Virus record (IMG/VR): IMGVR_UViG_3300027983_001732
Coordinates: 1-64,000 of that record
Length of the DNA: 64,000 nucleotides
Direction: 5' to 3' (one strand)
Origin: a virus
How positions within the stretch are numbered: the stretch's first letter is position 1; every line of letters starts with the position of its first letter. The position numbers and the translations under genes were made by a program. Positions 18,300-50,564 of this stretch are shown here, one piece after another. The notes beneath the pieces were generated by a model. It was not told the origin of the DNA. It did not search any database and was given only the letters and a program-made list of their open reading frames with translations.

Positions 18300-19088
18300 A
18301 TGGGAAATTTTAAAAAATTCATAGAATCAACTGGAATAGTCAGACACGATTTCAGCCATTTATCAAAAGATGAAAGATTAAAACAAGGAAAAGATATTGG
18401 AGAGAAATTTATTAAAGATGAACTTCTCAATCACGGAATCAAAATCGTCACAGTCGATAACATGATGTCACTTGACACTAAGTTGAAAATTGACGGATAC
18501 CTCAACGGAAATCCCAGCGAACCAGTTCAAATTAAATTGAGAAAAACTGGTCGAGGTAGTGATGATATAGCATATGAACTAATTCTTGGCTTTGATCCAA
18601 AACTGCCAGTTGCAGATCAATTAAACAATCCAAGAACACAAGGTCGTGATTACAAAGGACAATCTGTAAAACATTATTTTGTTATGAATCAAGATGAAAC
18701 CCAAATATATCACATTCCAGCAGATATGCTAAAAACAACAGCACTTGACGCTATAAAGCAAACTAGCGGAATAATCGACAGAGCGTTCAGAACGAAAAAT
18801 GGTGTTGAAATAAGACCAACTACCGATAATAGTTCTGGCGTCTCAAAATTGATGGTTTTTATACCAGCAGAACGAGTCGCAAAAGAAGCATACACAGTGG
18901 GTCAAGGAAAAATCCAACCTACATTCGGTGCCAACTCTGGACCTCACACATCAATGTCAAAGAAAGATTTCAATATAGCTGCCGCAGAAGAACGATTAAA
19001 GAATCTTCAAGCAAAACAAAAATTAGCTAATGATTTTCGTAAACAAAAGCAGGCAACTCCTGCTCAAACTGATGTTGATATTTCATAA
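18300..19088 (+). CDS. possible PD-(D/E)XK-like protein with capsid-targeting-like N-terminus
   Basis: The 262-residue protein opens MGNFKKFIESTG, similar to the short T4-type capsid-targeting leader seen on several genes at 34-37 kb. The core has an acidic helix (EKFIKDEL), then DTKLKIDGYL and VQIKLRKTG. This order (E, D, then QxK on a strand) resembles the PD-(D/E)XK nuclease fold. The C-terminal ~60 residues are basic and helical. Nuclease activity is only a suggestion. The start has no strong ribosome-binding site, and its end overlaps the convergent phosphatase gene by 25 bases. Confidence 0.5.
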   Translation: MGNFKKFIESTGIVRHDFSHLSKDERLKQGKDIGEKFIKDELLNHGIKIVTVDNMMSLDTKLKIDGYLNGNPSEPVQIKLRKTGRGSDDIAYELILGFDPKLPVADQLNNPRTQGRDYKGQSVKHYFVMNQDETQIYHIPADMLKTTALDAIKQTSGIIDRAFRTKNGVEIRPTTDNSSGVSKLMVFIPAERVAKEAYTVGQGKIQPTFGANSGPHTSMSKKDFNIAAAEERLKNLQAKQKLANDFRKQKQATPAQTDVDIS

Positions 19089-22420: not shown

Positions 22421-22520
22421 TTATACCTCTTCTTTAACTAGGCTTGTTAGCCGAGATATTACAGAAAAGTCTGAATTTCGTCTAGTCAGCTTGAATAAGA
22501 AATCTGAACTGTGCAGGCAA

Positions 22521-24389
22521 GTGCCTTGATTCTATCCTATTGAATAGCATCAGCACAAGAAAAATCGGTCTTTTAGTGCCTTGATTCTATCCTATTGAAT
22601 AGCATCAGCACTTGTTCTTTTTGTGGCTCTTCTGCCAACGTACTTTGCGTGCCTTGATTCTATCCTATTGAATAGCATCAGCACAGTAAGTCTGATTCGT
22701 GCCTTGATTCTATCCTATTGAATAGCATCAGCACTTTTGACACTTGATGACTTACTGGTCTCTTGCTGGTGCCTTAATTCTATCCTATTGAATAGCATCA
22801 GCACGAGGATCAAAGACCTTTGTGAGATCAAAGGTTTCAAGTGCCTTGATTCTATCCTAGCAATTTGACCGCTGTCGTCGGTTGCTTTGTGCCTTGATTC
22901 TATCCTATTGAATAGCATCAGCACCAAACCCTTTTTTGACATCACTAACTGGTGCCTTGATTCTATCCTATTGAATAGCATCAGCACACCCGAGTCTTCA
23001 GTGGACACGTGCCTTGATTCTATCCTATTGAATAGCATCAGCACCGAGGGGCAATTTTTCACCGTTTGTCGGCAATCAAAGTGCCTTAATTCTATCCTAT
23101 TGAATAGCATCAGCACCTGATTTCAAGATTCGAATCTTGTCCAGTGAGTAACGTGCCTTGATTCTATCCTATTGAATAGCATCAGCACATGAATTTAACT
23201 GTTCTTGTCGTGTCATTGTGTCTAGTGCCTTGATTCTATCCTATTGAATAGCATCAGCACAAAATAGAAGTGAGTTCCCCGACCTGTAGTGACTTCCGTG
23301 CCTTGATTATATCCCATTGAATAGCATCAGCACTTGTGAGGGAAGAAGACTCAAATCTTATCTGACAAGTGCCTTGATTCTATCCTATTGAATAGCATCA
23401 GCACTGTTACTAACCGACACTCAACAAGCGGAGTCAAATGTGCCTTGATTCTATCCTATTGAATAGCATCAGCACCTCATTGCCGCCGTCAGGGTGATAG
23501 GTGCCTTGATTCTATCCTATTGAATAGCATCAGCACTGGTGTGTGTATTCCAGAAGAGAGAGGTTGAGAGGAGTGCCTTGATTCTATCCTATTGAATAGC
23601 ATCAGCACCGTTGGTTCTATTTGTGTTTTTGACCAACTCAAGAGTGCCTTGATTCTATCCTATTGAATAGCATCAGCACGTGATCAATTGCTCAAAGTAG
23701 GCAGTTGGCTGTGAGTGCCTTGATTCTATCCTATTGAATAGCATCAGCACTTTAGTGTCTGACCTTTCCAGTGTGTATATCTGCTGTGCCTTGATTCTAT
23801 CCTATTGAATAGCATCAGCACACAATTCCGTTTCCGCACATCCACGCAAACCTGTTGGTGCCTTGATTCTATCCTATTGAATAGCATCAGCACGCTTGTC
23901 GCTCAAGTTCTCTGATCTCATCAGGATAGTGCCTTGATTCTATCCTATTGAATAGCATCAGCACGTGTATCCACCTGCTGATAAATCTCCAGTTTCTAGT
24001 GCCTTGATTCTATCCTATTGAATAGCATCAGCACTTTTTCTGCTGGTGCGTCCGAAATTAACCCCCCAGTGCCTTGATTCTATCCTATTGAATAGCATCA
24101 GCACGTATACCCCCCAAAACTCAAAGCGTATGTCCTTTGTGCCTTGATTCTATCCTATTGAATAGCATCAGCACTGCTGGTCACACAGACAGCAGCAGTT
24201 AAGTTTGTGAGTGCCTTGATTCTATCCTATTGAATAGCATCAGCACATCTTGACGATCGTTTTCTTTACGAGACGCTTGCTGTGCCTTGATTCTATCCTA
24301 TTGAATAGCATCAGCACCTCTAAGACAGCAAAACTTATCTTTCCTTCAGAGCCGTGCCTTGATTCTATCCTATTGAATAGCATCAGCAC
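22521..24389 (-). CRISPR. CRISPR array, 28 repeat units and 27 spacers
   Basis: The repeat is 36 bases, from GTGCCTTGATTC to GCATCAGCAC on the plus strand. Twenty-eight units start at 22521, 22576, 22649, 22699, 22769, 22841 (truncated to 19 bases), 22889, 22952, 23009, 23081, 23153, 23225, 23298, 23369, 23440, 23501, 23573, 23644, 23715, 23786, 23858, 23929, 23999, 24069, 24139, 24211, 24282 and 24354. Most spacers are 34-37 bases. Repeat variants and short spacers (14, 19, 21, 25 and 27 bases) are all in the low-coordinate half, so that is probably the old, trailer end. The leader side then faces the cas12 gene, and crRNA would be transcribed on the minus strand, beginning GTGCTGATGC and ending AAGGCAC. 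The GTGC/GCAC ends and TGAT/ATCA inside can pair. No clear promoter is visible in the 65 bases next to the effector gene, so co-transcription is possible. Confidence 0.97.
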
Positions 24390-24454
24390 TGCTGTCTTCG
24401 TAAGTCCAATCAGCCAAACAACATAAACATTCAAAAATCATGCACGTGGCACAA

Positions 24455-27220
24455 CTAAGCCGTATGATCTTTCAAAATCGTTTTAAAGTCAACGTCTTTT
24501 GTCGTAAGTGCTTTAGCACCAACATCTTTTGAAGAATCATGCACCTCTGGTAAGGCAAAATTGTTGTATCTTCCATCTGGATCACATGTTACGTCAAATT
24601 CTTGGCAATTCGGCTTCTCCACGGCTAATTGCTTGATTTTGTTTACCATCTCGTTGTGCAGTTCGCAAGTAACAATACAAGAGGAATGTGCATAAACAAA
24701 CTGGTTAATCAATCGAGTTTGAGTGCTATCAATTTTTTTTGCAAATGTAACTCGACCTCTATCATCCGAAACAAATTTAGGGACAGAAGAACCGTACTTC
24801 AAATTGAAAAATCTCTTAATACGCTTGCCAATGGCTTCTTCAGGTTTCTTAATCGCATTGATGCTATCCTGAGTGGAATTCGGCTTATTTTCATATTCCT
24901 TGACATAGAATTTGTATGGACAAACAGAATGGTTTAAACCTTGAATCAAAATATTCATCGTGGCAGCCAGATCTGAATCAATCCAACCCAATTGTTTGTC
25001 TCTGACAACATACAACCTAGATTTGTTTTTGTCATCACGCCATCCGGGATTGGAAGTAACAGGATCGCTTTGTGAAGTGCCATTCTTGGCGACTTTTACA
25101 AAACCAACTCCAATTTTTTCAAGAGCTTCTATAATGTATTTTAATAATGTCGCCGCCGAAAACAAACGCAACAAAGCATTGTTGTTTTTGTCTGAATCAA
25201 ATATGAAATCAAGATCTTCTCCAAACACAACATTACAATCTTTCATTTCATTGGCAATCTTTGACGCAAGTTGTCTCAAAACAAAATTTCTGAAATTTGC
25301 TCTGCTTTTATCAAACTTTGCGACTTTTACCAGTTTTTCTCCCGATTTCAAATGAATTCTATTATAAGATTCAGCCATTGAAGCACACTGATCCATAGCC
25401 TCAATCAAACGAATATTATCTGCACAATCACGATATCCTCCAGAACGCATCTCAAACTTAATTTTTCTCAAGCGAGAATTGATTTTTTTAACCCATGACT
25501 GAATTAAATATCGAGTTGAAGAAGATTTTGTGTCTCCACATAAAATCAAAAAATCACGAGTGTCTTCACCCACATGTTCTTTAACTGCGTTAGAAACTTT
25601 AAATTCTCTGATTGCTCCAATAACACGTCTGGCATCGTCTCTGATTTCTATCAAATTTTTGATTCTTGGACCATTTGCCACCAACATGAATGGTTTTTTA
25701 ATGAGATTCCCTGAACCATAATCTAAAGCGTTTAACTGTCCGCTTTTGTCGTCACGATAAACAACTGCTTTAACGGCAGCGACAGGATTTGACACATTCA
25801 GATCAATAGCTCCGACGACTATTTTGTCAGGAAGATTCTCTACATTTTCTTTCTTTGGACAAGCCGACATAAAAAATTCTGCAATTTTGAAGTTTTTCTC
25901 GTCGTGATGAATCGAATAAGGGAGTGATACAAAAAACCCAGAATCTGTATTACGCAAACCAATCTCTTTAAGAACCCCAGAAATTTTATCTCCTGTATGA
26001 GATGCTGCTTTTACGGCCTTCTTGCCTTTACTTATCGACTTATGACAGAAATTCAAAGAATAACCAGTACGACCATTTTTATTCCTAATTTCATCAAAAA
26101 CAATACCGCTGAAATAACAAGATGCAGCACACCTTATGACTCCGACACCGACGATTTCAATAAGCACATCGCCAGAATCTTCAACTGACACAGTGAAGTT
26201 TCCTAGAGATCCCTGCCCTACAGGAACTTTATAGTCATTTCTATTTGGATCGAAACAAGGATACAATTTTCTTTTTTCTAACTGTTTCTTTGTCCTCCAG
26301 CAAGAATAAGCTGACATAATTTCTGAATATGATGATTCAATCAGAATCCTGTATTTATTCTTCTTAAGTTCTTTAACAGCAAGTCTGATATCTGTTTTTT
26401 CTCCAGTTCCTTTTTTTACATGATCTATGCCTTTTGTCAAAACATACTTTGTGAGACCTGAATTTTTCGATTCTAATTCTGCTGCAAAACAACAAATAGA
26501 ATCATAAACAGGCCCTTGTTTATCATTCATCGACAGTTTAATCTTTTCTGTTTCCAACAAATGGTTGTTGTACTTCTCGAAAATGGACCTCAAATCCCTG
26601 CCAACCATCTCTATGAGAATGCGACAATAATTACAATCTCTTGAACGAATGCAAGACAATCCAAATGCCAATCTGAGATCCACTCCTAGCGATCTTTCAA
26701 TTGATGCCAATCTGGGAGACACTTCCGCCCAAATTTCAGGCAGTGGTAAATTTTTAACTCCATATTCCAACCATTCTTCAATGCAAATTTGAGAAAGTTG
26801 TTCATCGGTCTTGAAGTATTCTTTAATCTTGTTTTCATCGAGCAAAGGCAAGGCTGACAAAAAATCATTCTTTTTTTGTGTTAATTTAGCCTTCCCCAGA
26901 GACTTGTAATTTCTATAGAAAACATTGTAACAAGAAGAAGCATTTTCACCTCCTTTAAGAAGAAGTTCAATAAAACTAACTGCCAACTGTTCTTTTTTGG
27001 CGTCACCGATTGTTAATGATCTCAATCTTTCGGATTCTTCTTTAGATGTGTAAAACACTTCATCTTCGGCATTTGTGCCATAGCCAATTGCCATCCACCC
27101 AAAAAATAAATTCAAAAAAGAACGGTAGTCCGACTGTAAATCTGCATACCACTGCATGACTTCTTCAGCAGTATTCTTTGCCTTAAGGTTTCCGGTTCGA
27201 ATAAAAGATCTTGTAGCCAT
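24455..27220 (-). CDS. cas12: type V CRISPR effector (Cas12 family, subtype unassigned)
   Basis: Read from the ATG at 27220 (AAAGGG site upstream), the product is 921 residues. The RuvC nuclease is split as in Cas12. RuvC-I is VVGAIDLNVSNP with the catalytic Asp at 473, RuvC-II is VVFGEDLDFI with Glu at 668, and RuvC-III is IDSDLAATMNI with Asp at about 750. Between RuvC-II and III there is NGTSQSDPVTS...GWRDD, which resembles the TSxxDPxT motif of Cas12a-like enzymes, and there is no CxxC zinc ribbon. The N-terminal ~450 residues are helical and would form the REC and wedge lobes. A ~170-residue extension follows RuvC-III. It sits beside the array, without cas1, cas2 or cas4. It is expected to process crRNA and cut DNA, but neither can be shown from the sequence. 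Confidence 0.9.
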   Translation of the reverse strand: MATRSFIRTGNLKAKNTAEEVMQWYADLQSDYRSFLNLFFGWMAIGYGTNAEDEVFYTSKEESERLRSLTIGDAKKEQLAVSFIELLLKGGENASSCYNVFYRNYKSLGKAKLTQKKNDFLSALPLLDENKIKEYFKTDEQLSQICIEEWLEYGVKNLPLPEIWAEVSPRLASIERSLGVDLRLAFGLSCIRSRDCNYCRILIEMVGRDLRSIFEKYNNHLLETEKIKLSMNDKQGPVYDSICCFAAELESKNSGLTKYVLTKGIDHVKKGTGEKTDIRLAVKELKKNKYRILIESSYSEIMSAYSCWRTKKQLEKRKLYPCFDPNRNDYKVPVGQGSLGNFTVSVEDSGDVLIEIVGVGVIRCAASCYFSGIVFDEIRNKNGRTGYSLNFCHKSISKGKKAVKAASHTGDKISGVLKEIGLRNTDSGFFVSLPYSIHHDEKNFKIAEFFMSACPKKENVENLPDKIVVGAIDLNVSNPVAAVKAVVYRDDKSGQLNALDYGSGNLIKKPFMLVANGPRIKNLIEIRDDARRVIGAIREFKVSNAVKEHVGEDTRDFLILCGDTKSSSTRYLIQSWVKKINSRLRKIKFEMRSGGYRDCADNIRLIEAMDQCASMAESYNRIHLKSGEKLVKVAKFDKSRANFRNFVLRQLASKIANEMKDCNVVFGEDLDFIFDSDKNNNALLRLFSAATLLKYIIEALEKIGVGFVKVAKNGTSQSDPVTSNPGWRDDKNKSRLYVVRDKQLGWIDSDLAATMNILIQGLNHSVCPYKFYVKEYENKPNSTQDSINAIKKPEEAIGKRIKRFFNLKYGSSVPKFVSDDRGRVTFAKKIDSTQTRLINQFVYAHSSCIVTCELHNEMVNKIKQLAVEKPNCQEFDVTCDPDGRYNNFALPEVHDSSKDVGAKALTTKDVDFKTILKDHTA

Positions 27221-27258
27221 TGATGTCCCTTTGAGTTGTTGATTGTAATCAAACAATC

Positions 27259-28539
27259 TTAAAGAACACAATCAATGTTGTCAACTCGAATCACATCAGA
27301 ATTATCCTGTGTTAACTGAGCAAGGATTTCTGCATATTTTAACCCAACATTTTGCCATGAGTTTTCTGTAACAAAGTTTTTTGATTTCTGTAACAATGAG
27401 TTCCTGTAATCTCCAGATGTGAATACTTTAGCGATCTCATCAGCTAATTCTTCTGGATTGCTTGGTCGTGGAACAACTCCATCGAGATCATCAAACAAAT
27501 GACAGTCACTAGCGATCACGGGAATGCCATTTGACATCGCCTTGCGAATCGCACCAGATGCCCCATAAACCGTATTCTTCGGATCGTTCTTGTATGGGAA
27601 GACCGCCAACTTAGCAGTCCTCAAGAAGTTCTGCATGTGCTGCTCAGACAAATAGCCACGCAACACAACTACGTTATCTTGTAACCCTTTCTTTTCAACT
27701 AGATCTCTAATCTCATTGTAATATCGAGCCTGAATTGAACGTGTGTGATTGCTCTCGCTGCACAAGAAACAATAAAATATATCCTTAAACTCTTCTGATC
27801 TGTTCTTCAATATACTTACAGCCTCTATTGCACAATCAAGACCTTTATAATCAAAACCAAACCCAAATTGAATAATCGTGCGTTCGTTTTGAAATATATT
27901 CCACAATTGCTGTGTGTTTTCATATAAGTTGCAACCATGCGGCAAAACAAAAACTTCATTACGATGACCCAGCCTCTCCAAACATATTTTTCCATTTGGA
28001 TTATGAGTAATGATGTTTTTGATATAAGAAGTGCAAATTGTTTTATCAAGATGCTCATAAACCGAATGCAAAGTAATCACATAAGGAATGTTATTAAACA
28101 TTTCAAGTAATTTAAGGAAATGAGTGGCTTTTGGAAAAATTCCAAATTCATGTTGGATGAATATTATGTCTGGACCATAATCAATGATCTGTTGAGCTAA
28201 ATCAATGCAACTCTGCCCACGTTTCCAACAGCGTTCAACATCATCATGAGCACCTTCCATAGTTTCTGCAAATATCTTGACTTCTTTGACATGTTTGCGA
28301 AGTTCTGGAATTAGTTGCTCGCTATAAGTTGCGATTCCACATTGATCGCCCCAATTACAGATCCCGGCAACCTTCAGTTTACTCAACGGCTTTGCATTTC
28401 CTACAACAACCTTCTTTCCGACCAGAGACTTGTTTTCTTCCAAGCCCGGCACATAAATGGTTTTGTTGCCGCCGATACGAATGGCTTTATCTTTAGAAAC
28501 CGCCTGTATCATTCCTGCTTGATTGATCGAAACGTACAT
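27259..28539 (-). CDS. GT4-like (GT-B fold) glycosyltransferase
   Basis: The 426-residue protein has the GT-B architecture. An N-terminal Rossmann half has CNWGDQCGIATYSEQL and later FIQHEFGIFP. The C-terminal half has ASGAIRKAMSNGIPVIASDC, followed by EELADEIAKV, as in GT4 enzymes that bind nucleotide-sugars. The first ~50 residues are not typical of GT4. It overlaps the pyruvyl transferase gene by 47 bases and its stop lies just before the cas12 start, so cas12 may belong to this transcript. Confidence 0.87.
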   Translation of the reverse strand: MYVSINQAGMIQAVSKDKAIRIGGNKTIYVPGLEENKSLVGKKVVVGNAKPLSKLKVAGICNWGDQCGIATYSEQLIPELRKHVKEVKIFAETMEGAHDDVERCWKRGQSCIDLAQQIIDYGPDIIFIQHEFGIFPKATHFLKLLEMFNNIPYVITLHSVYEHLDKTICTSYIKNIITHNPNGKICLERLGHRNEVFVLPHGCNLYENTQQLWNIFQNERTIIQFGFGFDYKGLDCAIEAVSILKNRSEEFKDIFYCFLCSESNHTRSIQARYYNEIRDLVEKKGLQDNVVVLRGYLSEQHMQNFLRTAKLAVFPYKNDPKNTVYGASGAIRKAMSNGIPVIASDCHLFDDLDGVVPRPSNPEELADEIAKVFTSGDYRNSLLQKSKNFVTENSWQNVGLKYAEILAQLTQDNSDVIRVDNIDCVL

Positions 28540-33756: not shown

Positions 33757-34310
33757 TGACATGTATCATTGTAATGGGTTGTTTTCGTAGCGGAACCAGT
33801 GCAGTAGCTGGAGCCTTGCGACACATTGGAGTCTTTATGGGAGATCAATTCGAACAACCAAACAAGAACAACAAAAAAGGGTTTTGGGAAGATCTAGAAT
33901 TTAAAAAAATCCTAAATCAATACGAAAATTGTGATACATCCGCAAGTGAATTTTGCAAAGTTCTTGTTGAACAAAGAATTTCTCAACATGAAATTTGGGG
34001 ATTCAAAGACCCGTTAATTTGCAATCATCTTGGGCAATTCAACTTCATCGATTCAAAATTGATTGTCTGTCGCAGACCAGTAGAAGATATTGCATCTAGC
34101 ATGGGCAGAGCCATTGGCGTGAGTGCTAGAACTGTTTTCATTCCGCTTGCTGAGCACTATGTAAAAAAACTTAATCAGTCATTAAAAGAATACACTGGAC
34201 CTATTTTGGAAGTTCATAAAACAGATTCGATGTTACAAATTTTAGAACCGATTTGCGAGTTTGTTGGATTACCTTCAAATCAATCGGCTATTGATTTCTT
34301 AGTTTTGTGA
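33756..34310 (+). CDS. sulfotransferase-family protein
   Basis: A 184-residue protein with the sulfotransferase P-loop-like 5'-PSB motif GCFRSGTSAVAG (residues 8-19), FWEDLEF, then WGFKDPL, and the 3'-PB motif VCRRPVEDIASSM. These match enzymes that move sulfate from PAPS to sugars or other acceptors. It is short for the family but both PAPS-binding motifs are intact. It fits the glycan-decoration theme. Its end overlaps the convergent gene by 12 bases. Confidence 0.82.
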   Translation: MTCIIVMGCFRSGTSAVAGALRHIGVFMGDQFEQPNKNNKKGFWEDLEFKKILNQYENCDTSASEFCKVLVEQRISQHEIWGFKDPLICNHLGQFNFIDSKLIVCRRPVEDIASSMGRAIGVSARTVFIPLAEHYVKKLNQSLKEYTGPILEVHKTDSMLQILEPICEFVGLPSNQSAIDFLVL

Positions 34311-34505
34311 TTTCCACTTTAATACCGCCACATCAAAATAAGCTCTTCCTATCTCTTTCCCTTGATGATCATCGATTATAAAAATTGGTCCTTTGTTTGA
34401 GTGTTGGCTCATCTTAACAGAATAACCAGTTCCATTAAAGGTGTGCCATTCTCCTTGATTTATAGTGTTTTCCATCCAATTCTTGAAATTCATGATTTTA
34501 TCCAT
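34299..34505 (-). CDS. small hypothetical protein with capsid-targeting-like start
   Basis: A 68-residue protein. It opens MDKIMNFKNWMENT; the second Met begins a segment like the capsid-targeting leaders of neighbouring genes. The rest is a small strand-rich domain (GYSVKMSQHSNKGPIFIIDDHQGKEI). Its start shares a base with the stop of the upstream gene. Function unknown. Confidence 0.55.
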   Translation of the reverse strand: MDKIMNFKNWMENTINQGEWHTFNGTGYSVKMSQHSNKGPIFIIDDHQGKEIGRAYFDVAVLKWKSQN

Positions 34506-35290
34506 TAGTAATATTTGTAATGTACGGCAGCAAGTTCACTGATTTCATCTCTTCCTTGAGATGGGAAGCAATACACATCAAGATCTGATGGATTAATTTT
34601 CCATGTGTGCGGACCACCAACTGGTGATTCGATGTTATAATTTGTCATTCGAATAGTACCACATTCTGGATCATAACTAATCATAGTTTGATTTTGTTCT
34701 ACACGTCTTTGGCTTTTTCCTTCTAAGCCATGTCCACGCACGCCCATCTTGATAATATAAGCGTGATCATTCACTTTTCGAATTCCTTCTGGAATGAATA
34801 TGTTCTTCATTACCTTTTTGACTTTCGTGTAGATTTGCTGTGTAAGATGCTCAAGATCTGTATAATCTATGATTGGAGACTCAAGTGGGACTTCATATGC
34901 CTTTGAAAGTTCATTGTGAATTTCTTGAGAGACAATCTCTTCTAATCCGCCGTAACCTTGTCGATTTAGCTGAAACATCTTTTTTGATAACCAGCGATTG
35001 TTACCTTGTTTGTCTTTGCCAAGTTTTTTAACATAAAATGTGTACCCTGTATCGACTTCTAGTTTTATGGCTCCCGGTTCGCTTCCCCAACGAATTTCGT
35101 TCATAAAAGGCATTTGTGGCTTTAGGTTTCCAATGGATTTCTTTGACAAGAGTTCCATCATCAATTCGACATTGAATTGATGAATTGGGCGATCAAGCAT
35201 ACTTTGGTCTGGAACCGTTTTATCTTTATTGCGGTCAAACCCAAATATATCTGTATTTTCTATAAATTTTTTGAATGTCAATTTTTCCAT
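34505..35290 (-). CDS. hypothetical protein with capsid-targeting-like leader
   Basis: A 261-residue protein starting MEKLTFKKFIENTD, close to the T4 capsid-targeting motif (MKTYQEFIAE). The body has no recognised domain; it includes LSKKMFQLNRQGYGG and a late GVRGHGLEG. If processed like T4 internal proteins, the leader would be removed by the prohead protease after Glu near residue 11. Divergent from 35348. Confidence 0.6.
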   Translation of the reverse strand: MEKLTFKKFIENTDIFGFDRNKDKTVPDQSMLDRPIHQFNVELMMELLSKKSIGNLKPQMPFMNEIRWGSEPGAIKLEVDTGYTFYVKKLGKDKQGNNRWLSKKMFQLNRQGYGGLEEIVSQEIHNELSKAYEVPLESPIIDYTDLEHLTQQIYTKVKKVMKNIFIPEGIRKVNDHAYIIKMGVRGHGLEGKSQRRVEQNQTMISYDPECGTIRMTNYNIESPVGGPHTWKINPSDLDVYCFPSQGRDEISELAAVHYKYY

Positions 35291-35347
35291 TGCATATTAT
35301 TTACTGTGTATTGACTTAATTTTACAAGAAGGTTCTTTCTTTGTGAA

Positions 35348-35923
35348 ATGGCTGTTGGAAAGCTAAATAATGACATGGGAAAATTTATCATTTGGTTAGA
35401 AGATAACGAAAGTCAAAAGAATCAACAGATGAGAGATATCTGGTCTGATACTTTCAAGGCTTTGGGCGTTAATGGGTTGTCTGATGAAGACGCTGCATAT
35501 CAGTCTCTTGGCAAAATCACATATGGGCAGCGTGCTGCTACAGGAGCTTCTAGCACTTTCAAAGGAAAAAAAGCTGCTTACAAAAGATTGGAAAATGGAC
35601 AAATCTTCAATCGACTGTTGCAACTTCAAGATCCTGAAATTGTCAAACAAGTTCAAGATGCTAAAGAATGGCTTGGAAAAAATGATGATGACCCCAAGAC
35701 TCAAAACAATGGCGATACAACTATTGCCACATTATTACAGAAAATCTTTGGTAAAACTTATCAGCAGTTGATTGATTCAGATTCTCCTACAGCAGATGAT
35801 GTGTCTCTTAATAAGGCACCTCAAATGGCACCAAAAAACGACATGGGTCAAGGCGGTCCTGCTCCAGATATGCAACAGCCTGTTCAAAATCCGAATCAAA
35901 TGCCTTCAAACTTAGCAATATGA
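35348..35923 (+). CDS. hypothetical acidic protein
   Basis: A 191-residue protein. The likely start could be 35348 or the ATG at 35375, which would give MGKFIIWLEDNES, again resembling a capsid-targeting leader. The middle is helical (QIFNRLLQLQDPEIVKQVQ). The last ~50 residues are proline-, glutamine- and asparagine-rich and look disordered. The end overlaps the next start (ATGA). Confidence 0.55.
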   Translation: MAVGKLNNDMGKFIIWLEDNESQKNQQMRDIWSDTFKALGVNGLSDEDAAYQSLGKITYGQRAATGASSTFKGKKAAYKRLENGQIFNRLLQLQDPEIVKQVQDAKEWLGKNDDDPKTQNNGDTTIATLLQKIFGKTYQQLIDSDSPTADDVSLNKAPQMAPKNDMGQGGPAPDMQQPVQNPNQMPSNLAI

Positions 35924-36489
35924 AAACATTTAAGCAATTTTTTCAAGAGACGACAATTATTAGCGATTTACAAAATACAGCTAAAGGGGAGGGGAGAGTC
36001 CCTATACACGGCAAACCATTTGAATTTCATTTCTTCAGGCACAATAAGTCTGCCGGAAATTATGGAAGTGTTTTTGGACAAGATATCGAGCCTCACGGGC
36101 GATATGTGACTCAAATCAATCCATTAAATTACAACAAATCGCTGGTTTCGGACTTTCCTCACGAATACGAATCAGGAAAGATAAATTTCAAAAGACCTTA
36201 TGTTTTGGAGTTTGGCGGCGGTTATGGAGCCGATACAAATTGGAAAATGACATTAAGCAAGCAATTCAATGGCAAGAAAGGCAAGAGGCTCAGTCAGGCT
36301 ATTGTGGACGCAGGTTACGACGGCGTTGTGACATACACTAAGAGCACTGGTCCTAATCGTCCCGCACACACGGATGAAATCGTTGATTTAACAAGTTTTA
36401 CTCCAAATATACAACAGTCTGTTCAACAGACAAAACCTCAGACAAAACCTCAGACAAAACCAATGGAACTTCATCATGAAAACATTTAA
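35920..36489 (+). CDS. putative packaged protein with ADP-ribosyltransferase-like C-terminal half
   Basis: A 189-residue protein that starts MKTFKQFFQET, almost the T4 capsid-targeting sequence. The core has GRYVTQINPLNYNKSL, then AIVDAGYDGVVTYT and DEIVDLTSFTPN. This pattern (glycine turn, AGYDGVV, then E in DEIVxL) resembles the ADP-ribosyltransferase-like domains of large phage and plasmid polyvalent proteins. T4 Alt, an ADP-ribosyltransferase, is a packaged protein too. The end has a KPQT repeat. Catalytic residues are not certain, so activity is inference. Confidence 0.55.
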   Translation: MKTFKQFFQETTIISDLQNTAKGEGRVPIHGKPFEFHFFRHNKSAGNYGSVFGQDIEPHGRYVTQINPLNYNKSLVSDFPHEYESGKINFKRPYVLEFGGGYGADTNWKMTLSKQFNGKKGKRLSQAIVDAGYDGVVTYTKSTGPNRPAHTDEIVDLTSFTPNIQQSVQQTKPQTKPQTKPMELHHENI

Positions 36490-37192
36490 ACAATTTTTGC
36501 AAGAGATGCCAATGAGCTTAAATTTTGCTGGCAATAATTGGAATGATTTAGAACAAAATGCGAAAGCGGGACAAGCAACAGGTCGTTTCGACGCTGCATC
36601 TACAAGAATGTTATATTCTAATAAAGCTAAAGCAAAAATCGTAAAAAGACTTGAAAATGTTCCTTATGATTTTAATGTTTATTTTGTTAAAACTAAACGA
36701 GGAATATCCAATACTAAAATTGATAAATCACAAATGAATTCGTATTACAATCAAATGGGCATAACTCCAGATGAAGCTCCGATCATTGATGGAAAAATTA
36801 ATATGTTTATTTGTAGTTGGGAAAATGATCCTCCAACATCTTGGATGATTGTTCATAGATTTGCTCATTCTAACAACGAACTAACTCAATCCTTATACAA
36901 AATAATACACCAACATGGCAAAAATATGCACGGAATTAGAAGTCAATATCCAGAGTTTGACATCATATCAAAATATGGAACCATGAAATCTGCAACAACT
37001 GGAAGATTAGGTGCTAATGACGAACCTATTCACGAAATTATCGCACAATTTATTATGAATGGAAAAGTTACATTTAAAACCTCTCCAAATTCAATAATAG
37101 ACTCACAATTGAAAAACATTGAATCTATGATTAATGTTACAATAAAAAGCGGTCTGGAAAATGCAGAACAATATGTTTATTTTTTATTCTAA
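36476..37192 (+). CDS. putative packaged protein with HRxxH-type zincin-like motif
   Basis: The 238-residue protein starts MKTFKQFLQEM and overlaps the previous gene. It has a WMIVHRFAHS segment and, further on, PIHEIIAQF. The arrangement hints at a zincin-like metallopeptidase or binding domain (H...H with a downstream Glu), but the classical HExxH is missing. I do not recognise a family. The leader suggests delivery inside the capsid. Confidence 0.5.
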   Translation: MKTFKQFLQEMPMSLNFAGNNWNDLEQNAKAGQATGRFDAASTRMLYSNKAKAKIVKRLENVPYDFNVYFVKTKRGISNTKIDKSQMNSYYNQMGITPDEAPIIDGKINMFICSWENDPPTSWMIVHRFAHSNNELTQSLYKIIHQHGKNMHGIRSQYPEFDIISKYGTMKSATTGRLGANDEPIHEIIAQFIMNGKVTFKTSPNSIIDSQLKNIESMINVTIKSGLENAEQYVYFLF

Positions 37193-38374: not shown

Positions 38375-40582
38375 ATGAGATTCTACGAATTCCACCAAAT
38401 TGTTAAATCAGAAAATCCGCCAGCACTCAAGCTGCAATGGGACTATAACGCCGATACGTTCCGATCATGGCTTATGTCTGAAGTTACTAAGGATATTGTC
38501 AGGGAATTGGAATCGTGGAAAGATGAAAATCCAGACGAACTGCCATTTCATGGACTATTTCCTGCTGAAAATGATGAGTCAATCACCCGGAAAGTCATTC
38601 CATTCACCGCTGATCCAAACGCAACAGGAATTTTAGATAAAATCAAAAACGCTGGACTCACTATCGACTTCAAAACAGGTACAGTGAGCAATGGACAACG
38701 TGCTAATCGCTTAGGTAAATTCGTATTAAACAAAAACTCTCCGTTCTCATCAGAAGAAAAGATTTGGTGGAACCGTAGCGGTGAACCGGTGCCAGAACTT
38801 CAAAGAACACAAAGCACTCACCAATACTCAATAGTTGTATCTCGCAATCCTGTTGATATTGCTCGCATGTCAGATCATGACGGATGGACATCATGTCATT
38901 CTCCAAGTCGTGAATATTTTCAATGTGCCTTAGCTGACGCTAAAGGTGGTGGGGCAGTAGCTTACGTCGTTAGAAAAGATGATCTAGCTGGCATTGACCT
39001 CCAAGAGCCAGAAATCTTTTCAGATAAAAGACGGGGAGTCAGTGGCGTAAACCCCATGTCCAGAGTGAGACTACGCAAATTCGTTCATAAAGAAGATGGA
39101 TATGATCTCGCAGTTCCCGAAAATGTCGTTTATGGAGAAAAATTCCCCGGACTAGCCGATAGCGTAAGAGATTGGGCATTACAGTCTCAACAAGATATTC
39201 TAAAAGGTCAAAGAGTCCGTATGAAGGATTTCCGATTAATGGGCGGCAGCTACCAAGACACAAGAGGAAGCCGTTTATTTAACTATCTATTTGACGATGA
39301 ACTCGATACTGGAGATGCTGATTACGGCGGCGAGGATGAAGGACAAGGAATGTTTGACCAATACGAAGAAGAAGTCGAAATAATTGAACAAGAATACAGA
39401 GATAAATTCACTATTTGTTCCTTTTATGTAGAAGTACACGACTCCGAAGGTCAACCATATGTTGATTTCAGCGGCACTGCATACATCAAAATTCCAGAAG
39501 AACTACTTCTGACACCACCAGATGAAGCAGATAAATGGGACCCAAAATCTAAGCGACGACAACTCGATGAAGGTCTCAAAAAATGGGCCAGAGAAAACGA
39601 CATCTATAATGTCAATGAAATTAAATTACTTGATGACGGAGTGCGTATCGACATTTATTCTGATGACGACGATGCCACGCCAGATGGTTTTAGAAACTTC
39701 CTCAGACACAAACTCAGCGATATTGACGGCAGGAAAGATGAACTCACAGCCAGCTTGTATCACAAATTGGTCGAACTCGGATTAGCAACTGCAAATAAAG
39801 TCTCAGAAATTAATCTGGATGACGACAAGACTGATGAAGAACATATATTCCAAAACTTTGAATGGCAAGGCGAAAGCCCAGAAATCTCAATAGCACTCAA
39901 GCAACCAATGGAACTACCATCGCCGCCAACACCAAAATCTGGCGCTGCCCCTCAACACGAATATCCACATTGGCAAGATCAATTCAAAAACACAGTCACA
40001 CAACAAATCAAAGCGTGGGCGAATAGAGTTTTTGTCAATCAGAAACAACAATTATCGCTCTTTCCAGATGCGAATGACCATAAAAAACCATTTGAACTGC
40101 ATATCAAACCTGAGATCGAACTGAAGTCAAGTCAGAGAATATGGGAACAAGGACAACCATTATTAATGTATATGACGCTTAAATTCGAGACATTCTCAGA
40201 TGATGAACATGTTGAAGAAGCAATTAATTTCGTTAAGTTTTTAGATAAGAGCTTCCCTAAATTTGAGAGTATGATACATCAGATATACATGAATTGGAGC
40301 AAAAATTTTTACAGGTCGATCATGAATCAGCAACAGTGGCAGCCTCAGCAAACTGGTAACTGGAACTCCACTGGGTTCTGGAATTCACAACAAGATTCTC
40401 AGTCACAACAAGCTCAGTCACAACAACAAGCTCAGTCACAACAACAAGCTCAGTCACAACAAGCTCAGTCACAACAACAAGCTCAGTCACAACAAGATTC
40501 TCAGTCACAACAAGATTCTCAGTCACAACAAGATTCTCAGTCGAAAGGTACGAAAAAACATGACAAACATTCCATTGTTTAA
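38375..40582 (+). CDS. large hypothetical protein with a repeated QS-rich tail
   Basis: The 735-residue protein opens MRFYEFHQIVK. Near residue 160-180 is RMSDHDGWTSCHS followed by a CALADAKGGGAVAYVV strand, a conserved arrangement I have seen in uncharacterised phage proteins. An acidic region (DADYGGEDEGQGMFDQYEEE) and a long helical part follow. The last ~75 residues are a tandem QQAQS/QQDSQ repeat. It directly follows the packaged-protein candidates and precedes a sugar aminotransferase. Function unknown; packaged protein is possible. Confidence 0.6.
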   Translation: MRFYEFHQIVKSENPPALKLQWDYNADTFRSWLMSEVTKDIVRELESWKDENPDELPFHGLFPAENDESITRKVIPFTADPNATGILDKIKNAGLTIDFKTGTVSNGQRANRLGKFVLNKNSPFSSEEKIWWNRSGEPVPELQRTQSTHQYSIVVSRNPVDIARMSDHDGWTSCHSPSREYFQCALADAKGGGAVAYVVRKDDLAGIDLQEPEIFSDKRRGVSGVNPMSRVRLRKFVHKEDGYDLAVPENVVYGEKFPGLADSVRDWALQSQQDILKGQRVRMKDFRLMGGSYQDTRGSRLFNYLFDDELDTGDADYGGEDEGQGMFDQYEEEVEIIEQEYRDKFTICSFYVEVHDSEGQPYVDFSGTAYIKIPEELLLTPPDEADKWDPKSKRRQLDEGLKKWARENDIYNVNEIKLLDDGVRIDIYSDDDDATPDGFRNFLRHKLSDIDGRKDELTASLYHKLVELGLATANKVSEINLDDDKTDEEHIFQNFEWQGESPEISIALKQPMELPSPPTPKSGAAPQHEYPHWQDQFKNTVTQQIKAWANRVFVNQKQQLSLFPDANDHKKPFELHIKPEIELKSSQRIWEQGQPLLMYMTLKFETFSDDEHVEEAINFVKFLDKSFPKFESMIHQIYMNWSKNFYRSIMNQQQWQPQQTGNWNSTGFWNSQQDSQSQQAQSQQQAQSQQQAQSQQAQSQQQAQSQQDSQSQQDSQSQQDSQSKGTKKHDKHSIV
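40386..40547 (+). repeat. in-frame tandem repeat encoding QAQSQQ/QDSQSQ
   Basis: Units of 15-18 bases built from TCAGTCACAACAAG followed by GATTC or an extra CAA plus GCTC, repeated about ten times. It encodes the glutamine/serine-rich tail of the 735-residue protein and is likely to vary in copy number by slippage. Confidence 0.85.
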
Positions 40583-43373: not shown

Positions 43374-44087
43374 ATGAAGTGTATGATTATGTCAGGAAAG
43401 CCTAAATATAAAATCACTAAAGAGTTTCTTCATATAAATTATATTGATGAAAATAAATCAACTATTGATATTGCGTTGATGATCGGATGTTCTGTTAATA
43501 CAGTAAATTTTTGGATTAAAAAACATGATCTGAAGATGCGAGGAAAAGGGACTCATCGGATAAAGAATATTGTTGGCAAAGAATTTAACAACTGGACTGT
43601 TTTAAGTCGTGTTGAAAGTGATCCAAAAACTAAATGTTCAATATGGTTGTGTCGTTGTAAATGTGGTGTTGAAAAAACTGTCCATTATGGAGCTTTGACA
43701 ACAGGACAACGTAAACAGTGTAGAAAATGTTCTGCACTATCTCAGAGATCAAAAGACGCACTAACTTTTACATTTTGGAACAAAATAATTCAAGGAGCAC
43801 AACAACGTAACTTGTTGTTTGACATCACTCGTGAATATGCTTATGATTTGTTTTTAGAACAAGGTGAAAAATGTTCACTAACTGGTTTGGATTTAACCTT
43901 TTCAGATACAACTATAAGTTTTAACGGAACTGCATCTTTAGACAGAAAAGATTCTAAATTTGGATATACCAAAGACAATATCCAATGGGTGCATAAAGAT
44001 GTAAATAGAATGAAGTGGAAGCATAAAGAATTGTATTTTGTTGATTTGTGTAGAATTGTTGTTCAACATTATGACCAAAAGTTTTAG
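43374..44087 (+). CDS. HNH endonuclease, homing-type
   Basis: About 237 residues (the start is one of three ATGs at 43374-43389). The N-terminus has a helix-turn-helix-like segment (STIDIALMIGCSVNTVNFWIKK). Then CRCKCGVEKTV and CRKCSAL form a zinc-like AP2/HNH-associated module. The C-terminal part ASLDRKDSKFGYTKDNIQWV, then VNRMKWKH, is a classical HNH homing-endonuclease signature. Such genes are free-standing selfish nucleases in phages. It separates the PNK-like gene from the transporter locus. Confidence 0.85.
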   Translation: MKCMIMSGKPKYKITKEFLHINYIDENKSTIDIALMIGCSVNTVNFWIKKHDLKMRGKGTHRIKNIVGKEFNNWTVLSRVESDPKTKCSIWLCRCKCGVEKTVHYGALTTGQRKQCRKCSALSQRSKDALTFTFWNKIIQGAQQRNLLFDITREYAYDLFLEQGEKCSLTGLDLTFSDTTISFNGTASLDRKDSKFGYTKDNIQWVHKDVNRMKWKHKELYFVDLCRIVVQHYDQKF

Positions 44088-44097
44088 GAGACATGAC

Positions 44098-45939
44098 ATG
44101 AAATTGCGTTTAACTCTGGCGGCTATTCTTGTGATGGTCGTTTCGACCGTACAAGCTCAGCAACAAACATTTGAATCTTTGGTTGGCAAAGTTGATACAG
44201 GACCAGTGTCGCCTGATCCAATTGTACAAGTTCCGTTCATCACATGGGGCGGCGATGTTTCTACGTTCGTTGCCAACGGGGGACTGATTACAAATCCTAA
44301 TTCCATTTATGGAAAATCAGGATTGAATTTCAAGCTGGTCCCCGGCGATGATTTTCAACAACAAGTGCGAGACTATATCTCAGGCAAAAGTCCATATCTT
44401 CGTGGCACATACCATATGGTGTCCTTGGCATCTGAAATAATGAACAAGGATGCTCGTACAAAACCTGTAATGATTATGCAGCTTACGTGGAGCCTTGGAG
44501 ATCATCTTGTTTCTCGTGAAGGTATTAAAACAATCAATGATCTCAAAGGAAAAAAGATTTGCCTTCAACAAGGCGGACCACACATAGGACTTATTGATGA
44601 TTCTCTCAAAGCGGCGGCTTTGCAATGGTCTGACATTACTGTGGTTTGGGTTAAAAATTTGACTGGCGAAGAAAGCCCAGCGGCAATGTTTCGAAAAGAT
44701 CAAAGTATTGATGCCTGCTGTGTTATTTCTCCTGATATGATTGGTTTAACTTCTGGACTTGAATCTGTTGGTTCTGGAAGCGAAGGAACAATCAAAGGTG
44801 CTCACGTTGTGAATTCAACTGCATCTATGAGTCGTTCGATTGCGGATGTTTATATTGTTCGCAGCGATTATTTTGCCAGCAACAAGAATGATGTTGAAAA
44901 ATTTGTTGTCGGCTATCTTAAAGCCACAGAAGAACTGATGAAAGGCAAAGAAGCTTACGACAGCGGGCGTGGTCAATCTCCTTCATATGTTGCGTCTTTG
45001 AAAATGGCACAAACCATTTATGGAGCAGCAGTTCTTCCAACAATTGAAGAAGATGCTCATGGTCTGGTGTCTGATGCAAATTTTGTACGCATCCCCGGCA
45101 ACGAAATTTTCTTCAACGATGAAAATAATTTGACTGGTTTTGCATCACGTCAAACAGCAACGCTTGATTTGGCGGTTCAATTGGGATATGTGACTCAAAA
45201 GCTTGGATTTTCAAAAGCTGATTGGGATTACAAAAAGATTTCTGAAGAAGTCGGAGCTCCATATGTTTCACCAGTTTATTCAAAGGGTCGTATCAAAGCA
45301 GAAGTTACTGACTTCGGCGAAGACCTTGATAGCAGCACAATCTTTTCGTTTGAGATCCAGTTTAAACCAGAGCAGACAACTTTTCCTGCTGAAACATATG
45401 CTGCCGATTTCAAACGTTATCTGGAATCATCAGCAACATTTGCCAATGCGGCTGTTATAATTGAAGGACATTCTGATCCAACTTTGGCATTACAACATTT
45501 CTTTTGGGCGTCTAAAGCCAAAGGATTAATTACCGGCGAATCTGGAAATTACAAGTTCCGTGGTCAGAATCTTGATTTGGCTGATACTGGTTCTGTAGTT
45601 CAAGCCATTCAAAACGAAAATCTTGCTGGTCAAAAACGCAAAGATAACGGTGGTCAGATTGTTGAAATCCCTGACCCAAAGATCACTGTAGCAGCCGCAC
45701 TGACATTGAGTCGCTCTCGTGCAGAGTCTGTTAAAAAGGCAATTGAAGATTTTGCTAAAGAAAGCAAAATCCAGTTTGATATTTCTCAGTCTTTGCCGAA
45801 TGGCGTTGGAATTTCTTCGCCTGTCAATGCTCGTCCAAGAAACATGCAGCAAGCACAAGAGAACATGCGAGTCGTCTTCCGAGTGGTTCGGGTAAAGGCA
45901 GAAGCAATTTCCGCTGACGACTTCAATTTTGACAAGTAG
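44098..45939 (+). CDS. NMT1-like substrate-binding protein fused to an OmpA-like domain
   Basis: Read from the ATG at 44098, eight bases after GGAG, the product is 613 residues. It opens with a signal peptide (MKLRLTLAAILVMVVST...AQA). Residues ~35-390 follow the NMT1/THI5 or SsuA-type periplasmic binding fold (FITWGGDVSTFVANGG, DLKGKKICLQQGGP, VVNSTASMSRSIADVYIV). The last ~150 residues are OmpA-like: IIEGHSDP, then LSRSRAESVKKAI and a final QENMRVVFR. It would bind a substrate in the periplasm and attach to peptidoglycan. A terminator follows, so it is more highly expressed than the downstream genes. Confidence 0.8.
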   Translation: MKLRLTLAAILVMVVSTVQAQQQTFESLVGKVDTGPVSPDPIVQVPFITWGGDVSTFVANGGLITNPNSIYGKSGLNFKLVPGDDFQQQVRDYISGKSPYLRGTYHMVSLASEIMNKDARTKPVMIMQLTWSLGDHLVSREGIKTINDLKGKKICLQQGGPHIGLIDDSLKAAALQWSDITVVWVKNLTGEESPAAMFRKDQSIDACCVISPDMIGLTSGLESVGSGSEGTIKGAHVVNSTASMSRSIADVYIVRSDYFASNKNDVEKFVVGYLKATEELMKGKEAYDSGRGQSPSYVASLKMAQTIYGAAVLPTIEEDAHGLVSDANFVRIPGNEIFFNDENNLTGFASRQTATLDLAVQLGYVTQKLGFSKADWDYKKISEEVGAPYVSPVYSKGRIKAEVTDFGEDLDSSTIFSFEIQFKPEQTTFPAETYAADFKRYLESSATFANAAVIIEGHSDPTLALQHFFWASKAKGLITGESGNYKFRGQNLDLADTGSVVQAIQNENLAGQKRKDNGGQIVEIPDPKITVAAALTLSRSRAESVKKAIEDFAKESKIQFDISQSLPNGVGISSPVNARPRNMQQAQENMRVVFRVVRVKAEAISADDFNFDK

Positions 45940-45951
45940 CAGTTATCTTCC

Positions 45952-46010
45952 CACCTCTATACCGACACTCTTGTCCGTCAATGAGAGACCGGTGTAGAGG
46001 TGTATTTTTT
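45952..46010 (+). terminator. intrinsic terminator within the transporter locus
   Basis: A 13-bp stem (CACCTCTATACCG with CGGTGTAGAGGTG, one wobble pair) with a long loop, followed by TATTTTTT. It probably lets only part of the transcript through to the downstream genes. Confidence 0.75.
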
Positions 46011-46021
46011 GGAGCAATCAA

Positions 46022-46399
46022 GTGAAGAAAAAAAAGTATATTCTCTATGGAATTGGAGTGTTGCTGTTTCTGTTGGTGTGTGTAAAAGGGTGCCTTTCAA
46101 TTGGCAGCATTACTTACTCTGATGGAGAGCGAACAGGAACTATTACTAAGTTCAGCCACAAAGGTCTTATTGTAAAGACTTGGGAAGGCGAACTGAATAT
46201 GGGCGGATTGGAAGTTGGCGGAAAATCAACAACATGGACATTTTCTGTAGATGATCAAGCAATCGTGGAAAAGATTCAAAAATCACAACGTATAGGCGGA
46301 TACTGGACATTAAAGTACCGTCAGCAATTATTCCAGCAAAGCTGGAAAGGTTCTACGGAGTATTTCATCACCGATGTCATTAAAGCTGAAAAGGAATAA
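46022..46399 (+). CDS. membrane-anchored small protein
   Basis: A 125-residue protein with a GTG start after TTTGGAGC. MKKKKYILYGIGVLLFLLV is a signal anchor. The outer part has YSDGERTGTITKFSHKG, then KTWEGELNMGG and STEYFITDV. This YSxGxRxGxIxKFSxKG...KTWEGEL pattern is shared by a widespread unnamed bacterial family. It lies between the first substrate-binding gene and the VWA gene. Function unknown. Confidence 0.7.
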   Translation: MKKKKYILYGIGVLLFLLVCVKGCLSIGSITYSDGERTGTITKFSHKGLIVKTWEGELNMGGLEVGGKSTTWTFSVDDQAIVEKIQKSQRIGGYWTLKYRQQLFQQSWKGSTEYFITDVIKAEKE

Positions 46400-46401
46400 T
46401 T

Positions 46402-47313
46402 ATGAATAAGTTCATTACATTTGTTCTGTTGACTCTCGCCTTTACGAGAACCGTTGTTGCTGATGATTATATCGTTATTGTGATTGATACATCCGGCAGC
46501 ATGGAAGACAAAATGAGAAGTGTTGACAAAACACGCATGAATGTCGCACAAGATGCTTTAATTGGTGTTTTGTCAAAGATTCCTTCTACAACAAAAGTTG
46601 GAATTCTGACTTTCAATGGATGGGTTTATGATATTCAAAATGTTGATCGTGAAGAGTTAGTGACGGCAATCCGTTCAACAAGTCCAAGTGGCGGTACTCC
46701 TCTGTACCAATTCATAAGTGATGGTGCGACCAGACTTTTGGAGGAACGTGAGAAACAAGGAAACATCGGAAGTTATAAGTTGCTGGTCGTAACTGATGGT
46801 GCTGCCAGCGACAACTATCTGAATGAAGATAGTTTTTTTGGGGATGACAGTGAAAAGCCCGGTGTGCTGAAAGATATTTTGAATAGATCAATTGCCGTTG
46901 ATGCCATTGGTTTGGATATCGCCGAAGATCATGCTTTGGCAACTCAAATAAATGGAATTTACATGCGTGGTGATGATCCAGAATCATTGAGCAAGGCGAT
47001 TACGAAATCTGTCGCTGAAGTTGGATTCGGAACAAATCAAGATGCTTCCGATGAATCATTCAAAGAGATTTCTGAATTGCCAGAAGGATTTGTATTGGCT
47101 TCTTTGAAAGGATTGACAACTTTCTCTAATCAGCCAATCGGACGAAAATCACCAGTAGAAGTTGTCCAAGAAGACGGAACAATAATTATTGTTCCTAATC
47201 CAGCAAATGTGGAAAAAGGTGGTTTTACATTTTTAATTATGTCTATCTTCTCTTTTGTTATTGTGCTTGTTTTGTTTGTAGCGTTTGTTGCTAACAAGTC
47301 TGGGGGTCGCTAA
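46402..47313 (+). CDS. VWA-domain protein with signal peptide and C-terminal membrane helix
   Basis: A 303-residue protein. MNKFITFVLLTLAFTRTVVA is a signal peptide. The von Willebrand A domain follows at once, with the MIDAS residues DTSGSM, the loop Thr in GGTPLY and the Asp in VTDGAASD. A linker of ~60 residues follows, then one membrane helix (TFLIMSIFSFVIVLVLFV) near the end. The domain would face the periplasm and bind a metal-dependent protein partner. It is two bases downstream of the small membrane protein gene. Its role in the transporter locus is unknown. Confidence 0.88.
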   Translation: MNKFITFVLLTLAFTRTVVADDYIVIVIDTSGSMEDKMRSVDKTRMNVAQDALIGVLSKIPSTTKVGILTFNGWVYDIQNVDREELVTAIRSTSPSGGTPLYQFISDGATRLLEEREKQGNIGSYKLLVVTDGAASDNYLNEDSFFGDDSEKPGVLKDILNRSIAVDAIGLDIAEDHALATQINGIYMRGDDPESLSKAITKSVAEVGFGTNQDASDESFKEISELPEGFVLASLKGLTTFSNQPIGRKSPVEVVQEDGTIIIVPNPANVEKGGFTFLIMSIFSFVIVLVLFVAFVANKSGGR

Positions 47314-47314
47314 A

Positions 47315-48865
47315 ATGGACGAAAAGACAGCGATGACAAAAAGTCGCATTGCGGCGATGCTGTTTATTTGGTTTTCTCTTCTTGGTGTTGTATTGTTTGC
47401 TTGGAAATTTTGGGTTCATCCACAACAACAAGCTGCTAAACAACAAGCTGCTGAACAAGAACACAAAAATACCATTGAAAAAACAAGTGCTCCTTCACGT
47501 TTCAAACATACTGTTAATTTTGCTGTTGATTCATTTTCTGGATATGCGGCGATTCGCAGTAGTGCGTTTCGAGATGAAAATGCAAAATTTGGAATCAAGA
47601 TCGAGTTGACAGATGATGGAGCCAACTACCAGCAACGCTTGAAAAAATTGGCAAGCGGCGAGTTGGACATGGCAGTGTTCACAATTGACGCCTTGATGAA
47701 GTCTTCCGCTGAATATAAAGATATTCCGGCGACCATTGTGGCTTTAATTGACGAAACAAAAGGCGCCGATGCAATGGTTGCATCAAAACAAAAATTTCCG
47801 AACATCGACGCTTTGAATTCTAGTGGTTTAAAGATTGTGTGTGCTCAAGACTCGCCTTCAGAAACATTGACACGAGTTATCATGACACACTTCAATTTAG
47901 ATAATCTTCCAGAAAATCCATTTCAGTTTATGGATAGTGTTGATGCGGTTTATCAAGAATACCAGAAAACAAAGCCCGGCGACAACAAGGTATTTGTTCT
48001 ATGGGAACCATACGTCAGTAAAATAGTCGATAATCCTGATTATCATGTTTTGGTTGACAGCAGTAAATTTCGAGGGTACATCGTTGATGTTATTGTGGCT
48101 CGTCGTGGCTTTCTTGTACAAAATGAAGCTCTCGTTGAAAACGTGGTCAAGTCGTATTTGAAGTCGATGTTTGATAGTCGCAACAACATGGTGGATCTTG
48201 TTTCTAATGATGCGAAACAAATTGGCACGCCTTTAAAGCCAGAACAAGCTCAAAAACTTGCTGAAAAAATTTGGTGGAAAAACACTCAAGAGAATTTTTC
48301 TCACTTCGGTTTAACAATTGGGAATAATATTCAACACATCGAAGAGATGAATTCAAACATTATGGATGTGTTGCTAAAAACCAATGCGATCACTTCTGAT
48401 CCAACTAATGGTCAGCCTAACTTATGGCATTACGATGGCATTATGCGAAAATTATTTGACACATCGTGGCATCCGGGTTTTGGACCAGAAATTATCAGAC
48501 AAGAGAAATCTCTGGCTGCTCTCTCTGACGAAGAGTGGAAAACATTAAAGCCAGTTGGCACACTTCAGGTTCCAAGGCTCGTGTTTGCTCGTGGCGGAAG
48601 CAAGCTAAATGATAGTAGTTTTTCTACTCTTGATAAACTTGTGGAAAGCTTGAAATCGTGGCCGCAATTTTATTTGCTGGTTCAAGGCAATCATGCGTCA
48701 AATGGAGACGCTGAAGCGAATAAAATTCTGGCTGAATCAAGAGCTACAACGGCTGTGGATTATTTGGTTAGCAAGGGTGTTGATATTTCTAGGATTCACA
48801 TTGAAATATCTAAACCAAATGGCTCAACAACTGTTGCATTTGTTCTTGGGGAACTTCCTTATTAA
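47315..48865 (+). CDS. NMT1-like substrate-binding protein with membrane anchor and OmpA-like end
   Basis: The start is the ATG at 47315, two bases after the VWA stop and after a GGGGG site; the product is 516 residues. A signal anchor is at residues ~11-32 (IAAMLFIWFSLLGVVLF). A linker with QQAAKQQAAEQE follows. The substrate-binding domain has VNFAVDSFSGYAAI, LASGELDMAVFT and SGLKIVCAQDSPSE. The last ~100 residues are OmpA-like (LVQGNHASNGDAEANKIL, then ESRATTAVDYL). It is a second, diverged copy of the 44098 gene product. Confidence 0.78.
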   Translation: MDEKTAMTKSRIAAMLFIWFSLLGVVLFAWKFWVHPQQQAAKQQAAEQEHKNTIEKTSAPSRFKHTVNFAVDSFSGYAAIRSSAFRDENAKFGIKIELTDDGANYQQRLKKLASGELDMAVFTIDALMKSSAEYKDIPATIVALIDETKGADAMVASKQKFPNIDALNSSGLKIVCAQDSPSETLTRVIMTHFNLDNLPENPFQFMDSVDAVYQEYQKTKPGDNKVFVLWEPYVSKIVDNPDYHVLVDSSKFRGYIVDVIVARRGFLVQNEALVENVVKSYLKSMFDSRNNMVDLVSNDAKQIGTPLKPEQAQKLAEKIWWKNTQENFSHFGLTIGNNIQHIEEMNSNIMDVLLKTNAITSDPTNGQPNLWHYDGIMRKLFDTSWHPGFGPEIIRQEKSLAALSDEEWKTLKPVGTLQVPRLVFARGGSKLNDSSFSTLDKLVESLKSWPQFYLLVQGNHASNGDAEANKILAESRATTAVDYLVSKGVDISRIHIEISKPNGSTTVAFVLGELPY

Positions 48866-50515: not shown

Positions 50516-50564
50516 CTTGGCGATGTTCGCCAAGTTAATATTACTTAAATTTAGGAGAACTAAG

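Follow-up and report, generated by a model that had tools for sequence, protein, structure and literature searches.

Unrelated proteins of a huge phage probably carry T4-type capsid-targeting leaders

In a 64,000-nt stretch of DNA from a huge bacterial virus (positions 1 to 64,000 of IMG/VR record IMGVR_UViG_3300027983_001732, hereafter the window), no fewer than five unrelated genes, and probably six, appear to share a T4-like tag for loading proteins into the phage head (Table 1). In T4, the internal proteins IPI-IPIII and Alt carry an N-terminal capsid-targeting sequence (CTS) which is removed by the gp21 protease; their bodies are unrelated and variable, and are injected with the DNA (PMC3012670, PMC12373910, PMC5694885). 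Leaders of this type, along with packaging in the head, cleavage by an S77 protease and injection, are very probably the best explanation of the data. The same reading had been advanced in a preliminary description of this DNA, and is supported by the presence of an S77 protease and a T4-type head module in a relative, by leader enrichment in S77-positive phages only, by the association of the leader with at least ~50 unrelated bodies, by the retention of leader position over body, and by the prevalence of Ser/Ala after the leader Glu.

The N-termini and reading frames of all six genes match those previously described. The leaders of genes 35920 and 36476 have the T4-like form, those of genes 34505, 34299, 18300 and 35375 are a shorter variant, and the extra residue before Glu seen in T4 is missing from four of the six. 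The residues following the leader Glu are T, M, N, N, S and D, mostly not Ser/Ala. Both features speak against the T4-type reading. The bodies have nothing recognisable in common beyond the leader. The longest reading frame at 35375 spans 35348-35923, and the ATG previously chosen is internal to it; this ATG puts the leader at the extreme N-terminus, as in the syntenic gene of the relative LR756511.1. Two further genes were weighed and not claimed. Gene 38033 could start at a TTG, giving the N-terminus WKSFKKIIN. Gene 38375, absent from the earlier list, has been left doubtful as a seventh member; its product has a glutamine-rich, repetitive C-terminus and relatives in two huge phages with possible leaders, Atu_ph07 (MQYTDLIEALK) and LR756504 (MKRIKSFRDYNLLLEKLK).

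Table 1. Leader-bearing genes of the window and their leaders. Genes are designated by their lowest coordinate; profile scores are in bits.
Feature	Coordinates	Strand	Remarks
Leader of gene 35920, MKTFKQFFQE, then TT	35920..35949	+	Predicted cleavage after E10; profile score 14.7, second among all starts
Gene 35920, leader-bearing protein, 189 aa	35920..36489	+	Body a putative ART-like domain (unproven)
Leader of gene 36476, MKTFKQFLQE, then MP	36476..36505	+	Predicted cleavage after E10; profile score 15.1, rank 1
Gene 36476, leader-bearing protein, 238 aa	36476..37192	+	WM[IV]xHRxxH family
Leader of gene 34505, MEKLTFKKFIE, then NT	35258..35290	-	Profile score 10.6
Gene 34505, leader-bearing protein, 261 aa	34505..35290	-	Full-length homologue in LR756511.1 (28% over 98%)
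Leader of gene 34299, MDKIMNFKNWME, then NT	34470..34505	-	Profile score 13.1; alternative, MNFKNWME from ATG at 34493
Gene 34299, small leader-bearing protein, 68 aa	34299..34505	-	No homologue detected
Leader of gene 35375, MGKFIIWLE, then DN	35375..35401	+	Profile score 8.6 from internal ATG
Gene 35375, leader-bearing protein, 182 aa	35375..35923	+	Low-complexity C-terminus
Leader of gene 18300, MGNFKKFIE, then ST	18300..18326	+	Profile score 8.8
Gene 18300, leader-bearing protein, 262 aa	18300..19088	+	No homologue detected
Gene 38375, 735 aa, doubtful leader MRFYEFHQIVKSE	38375..40582	+	Profile score only 1.1

A strict leader motif was found in 2 of the 73 genes of the window (0.1 expected), a broad one in 7 (1.1-1.3 expected), some of which may be chance hits; the same motif script recovered MKTYQEFIAE from the T4 genome. 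The source record is a fragment of 65 kb, and the test against chance therefore required the complete genome of a relative. LR756511.1 (595 kb) carries homologues of 38 of the 73 genes, in long syntenic stretches. A profile was built only from the N-termini of this genome, after removal of the homologue of gene 34505, and then applied to the starts in the window. The six genes outranked every other real gene start, and in 200 null draws the fifth-best score did not exceed 6.3. Genes 18300 and 35375 are the weakest members when taken singly.

The search for a gp21-like protease, proposed in the preliminary description, gave a divided result: no head genes or S77 protease were found in the 65-kb fragment, and the protease was found in LR756511.1. 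The head partner of the leaders is thus deduced from relatives. LR756511.1 hosts a T4-type head module including portal, gp21/S77 protease, scaffold and capsid protein, homologues of gp20, gp21, gp22 and gp23, respectively, which span no more than 10 kb and are ordered as in T4. A second S77-like protease gene (242240-243133) resides far from the module. Candidate capsid-protein propeptides of relatives would end in LLE/N, LME/N and LFE/S. About 26 genes of LR756511.1 carry leaders, N-termini of the form MxxFxx[WFY][LIMVF](x)E being in excess. Where gene order matches that of the window, the leader is kept while bodies change. The leader is the sole blastp similarity between gene 35375 and the syntenic gene 696 (MKNFRVWLEE), and the spot corresponding to gene 18300 is occupied, on the same strand, by a leader gene (MKLDFRDFTEA) with an unrelated body. 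The homologue of gene 34505 starts with MKSFASWFNE.

Reuse of the leader is not limited to these two genomes. The sequence MKTFK[EQ]F..E heads at least 86 reading frames in IMG/VR viral contigs, which fall into at least ~50 unrelated body families. Among the matches listed, Ser or Ala immediately follows the leader Glu in 41 of 77 distinct bodies (53%, versus 13% in other genes; p 2e-17), as expected of a processing site, and an S77 protease is present in 9 of 28 leader contigs, including all three above 100 kb. In 82 of the 87 matches listed the leader lies at the start of the frame; proteins often begin with MKT in any case, and this was not taken as evidence. Recognisable bodies include ART-PolyVal, C39-like (papain-like) peptidase, 2H phosphodiesterase-like, HAD, zeta-toxin-like, GNAT-like and glucosaminidase domains, and bona fide ART-PolyVal proteins of other phages are headed by the same leader class.

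The association with the protease extends to other phages. The S77 family (PF03420) was detected in T4, LR756511.1, Atu_ph07, LR756504 (under the curated cut-off), a 517-kb phage, PAU and RaK2, and had no match in phage G, phiKZ and SPO1. Observed versus shuffled counts of N-terminal motifs were 6/1.4 in T4, 16/4.8 in LR756511.1, 28/4.1 in Atu_ph07, 23/7.0 in LR756504, 16/2.7 in the 517-kb phage and 15/1.9 in PAU, and 1/1.8 and 1/0.9 in phage G and phiKZ, both partly scanned for leaders. RaK2 is S77-positive, yet its count (5/2.8) is merely slightly above its null. The distribution supports the notion that leader enrichment accompanies S77: six S77-positive phages show it, whereas phage G and phiKZ, as far as scanned, do not. 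Leaders come in dialects, MKTFxxWLE in LR756511.1, MRWxQLTE in Atu_ph07, MRYxEILxE in the 517-kb phage and MKxxKxFxxFLNE in LR756504.

Could the similarity have arisen otherwise? The leaders of genes 35920 and 36476 are nearly identical at the DNA level across 30 nt and diverge directly afterwards, which may hint at two duplicated genes sharing a start, the other four resembling them by coincidence. Chance or recent paralogy of this kind is very improbable, given that the two bodies are unrelated, that their DNA identity goes no further than the leader, and that a profile trained independently still ranks all six genes highest. The shared N-terminus might alternatively be a helix for targeting or anchoring proteins, uncleaved and unpackaged, to a membrane, a phage compartment or a common partner. 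The leader is indeed a short helix (residues 4-9) in the models of both the 35920 and 36476 products, at low confidence. Against this unlikely option, leader enrichment and the exact leader track S77 proteases, the conserved terminal Glu with Ser/Ala next to it resembles a protease site, and the known T4 leaders belong to the same class.

Marginally less improbable than anchoring, and still to be given little weight, is the hypothesis that the leader marks components of the scaffold core or structural proteins of the head, which serve assembly only and are not injected effectors. T4 gp22, gp67, gp68, gp23 and gp24 are likewise gp21 substrates, and some leader bodies are small and of low complexity, such as that of gene 35375 and many in viral contigs. 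The bodies are highly variable between relatives, though, and include the recognisable domains listed above (ART-PolyVal, peptidase, zeta-toxin-like and others), as expected for cargo.

None of the enzymatic roles considered for the window bodies stood up to the searches made. Searches of Pfam, PHROGs and NCBIfam with the leader proteins of the window gave nothing above cut-off, no direct phage homologues were found for the products of genes 36476, 18300 and 35375, and single-sequence searches of IMG/VR with those of 34505, 35920 and 36476 retrieved only near-identical copies of the same virus. The ADP-ribosyltransferase-like body formerly assigned to gene 35920 is plausible, and unproven: comparison with ADP-ribosyltransferases (ART-PolyVal, PF18760) gave no Pfam match and a non-significant hhalign E of 0.22. 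The AF2 model is mostly above pLDDT 85 in the body; no significant match was found in the PDB, and a weak one (probability 0.35) links the fold to an Atu_ph07 protein. In contig L247, a protein with the same leader is similar over nearly its whole length (37%), and adjoins a leader-bearing ART-PolyVal protein. Elsewhere the 35920-type domain occurs, leaderless, mostly within larger proteins of the polyvalent type, several of 1,700-2,700 aa; none of 8 contigs carrying the leaderless domain matched S77. A DraG-like ADP-ribosyl hydrolase, which has a homologue in LR756511.1, is encoded at 60949-62052 of the window, and is a possible counterpart to injected ADP-ribosyltransferases.

The 36476 family, WM[IV]xHRxxH, has invariant H127, H131, E183 and E187, and the protein is possibly a metal-dependent hydrolase; the confidence of its predicted structure was too low for a fold search. 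The family is found behind MRYHEIISE in the 517-kb phage, and behind MAKFIKFLKE in smaller contigs, and both the leader Glu (E10) and the Pro two residues later (P12) are invariant among relatives. No search gave support to the nuclease-like body also suggested previously, and a nuclease fold for the 18300 product has been discarded as unsupported. As for expression, the late-promoter motif TATAAATA occurs four times in the window (2.4 expected), never directly before leader genes, and a sigma-70 promoter scan of the window was uninformative.

The window hosts other elements. A Cas12h gene (24455-27271; PADLOC, 1508 bits) lies beside a CRISPR array of ~28 repeats (GTGCCTTGATTCTATCCTATTGAATAGCATCAGCAC; ~22500-24390), and the two form a phage-borne type V-H system. 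The region 44038-53673 is an island of genes resembling, by sequence reading, binding proteins, ABC permease and ATPase, and vWA and PspA-like proteins. LR756511.1 keeps it in the same order as an inverted block, and such an island is unusual for a phage.

The leaders resemble those of T4 in the 10-residue format and in the unrelated bodies that follow. In contrast to T4, the genomes concerned are ~500-640 kb, several times larger, and carry ~16-28 candidate leader genes each by motif count, rather than 6; leaders are genome-specific dialects, and bodies are unrelated to T4 internal proteins. Giant phages of the SPN3US/phiKZ type also package, process by proteolysis and inject ejection proteins (PMC5694885). 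Their propeptides are mostly longer than 100 residues, unlike the short leaders described here, and no short-leader enrichment was seen in the part of phiKZ that was scanned. The 35920-type domain and ART-PolyVal bodies are shared with polyvalent proteins (PMC5512222), which differ in that domains are joined in one giant polypeptide, and do not each stand behind their own leader. The closest parallel in virion data is Atu_ph07, whose virions were found to contain 29 products of CDS 31-76, just two of which had been predicted to be structural (PMC6102473). The MRWxQLTE genes of this S77-positive jumbo phage are CDS 53-63 (our own count, fixed by gp18 and gp70), inside the virion-protein cluster, and are not described as leader-bearing in the literature found. 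They correspond to tandem genes (MF403008.1, 39484-50592), nearly all starting with M[KR]W-x-x-L-x-E, whose bodies are paralogous and contain [YF]RG, unlike the unrelated bodies of the window. The virion data support packaging of the gene cluster, not of each leader protein. This kind of set is already known from T4; what a specialist would find new is how large the repertoire is, and that each genome has a dialect of its own. No earlier description of such repertoires in phages this large was found in the literature, which was searched mostly outside subscription journals.

In the model proposed, N-termini of 9-12 residues would recruit, late in infection, unrelated cargo to the prohead scaffold core, a gp21-like S77 protease would then cut behind the Glu ending the leader, and mature bodies would remain in the head amid the DNA and follow it into the next host. 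We infer that the window proteins may be packaged, cleaved and injected in this manner, and their bodies could act early as weapons, as previously envisaged. In each huge phage, some ten to a few dozen cargo genes would bear its particular dialect; their products would make up an exchangeable set of injected proteins that includes ADP-ribosyltransferases. A broader view, to which we give even chances, regards huge phages as open modular delivery systems, in which a genome-specific dialect fits the protease and scaffold of the same phage and brings dozens of interchangeable effector domains into the head, so that acquiring a 30-nt leader is enough to turn the product of any gene into injected cargo. 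According to this view, single-domain cargo and giant polyvalent proteins may be alternative routes for the same domains, set by the presence of S77. With the leader as a sequence tag, candidates for injection could be listed from genomes alone in huge phages, most of which are uncultured. Since T4 leader proteins are active as soon as infection begins, such repertoires would be a natural place to seek counter-defence and host-takeover functions.
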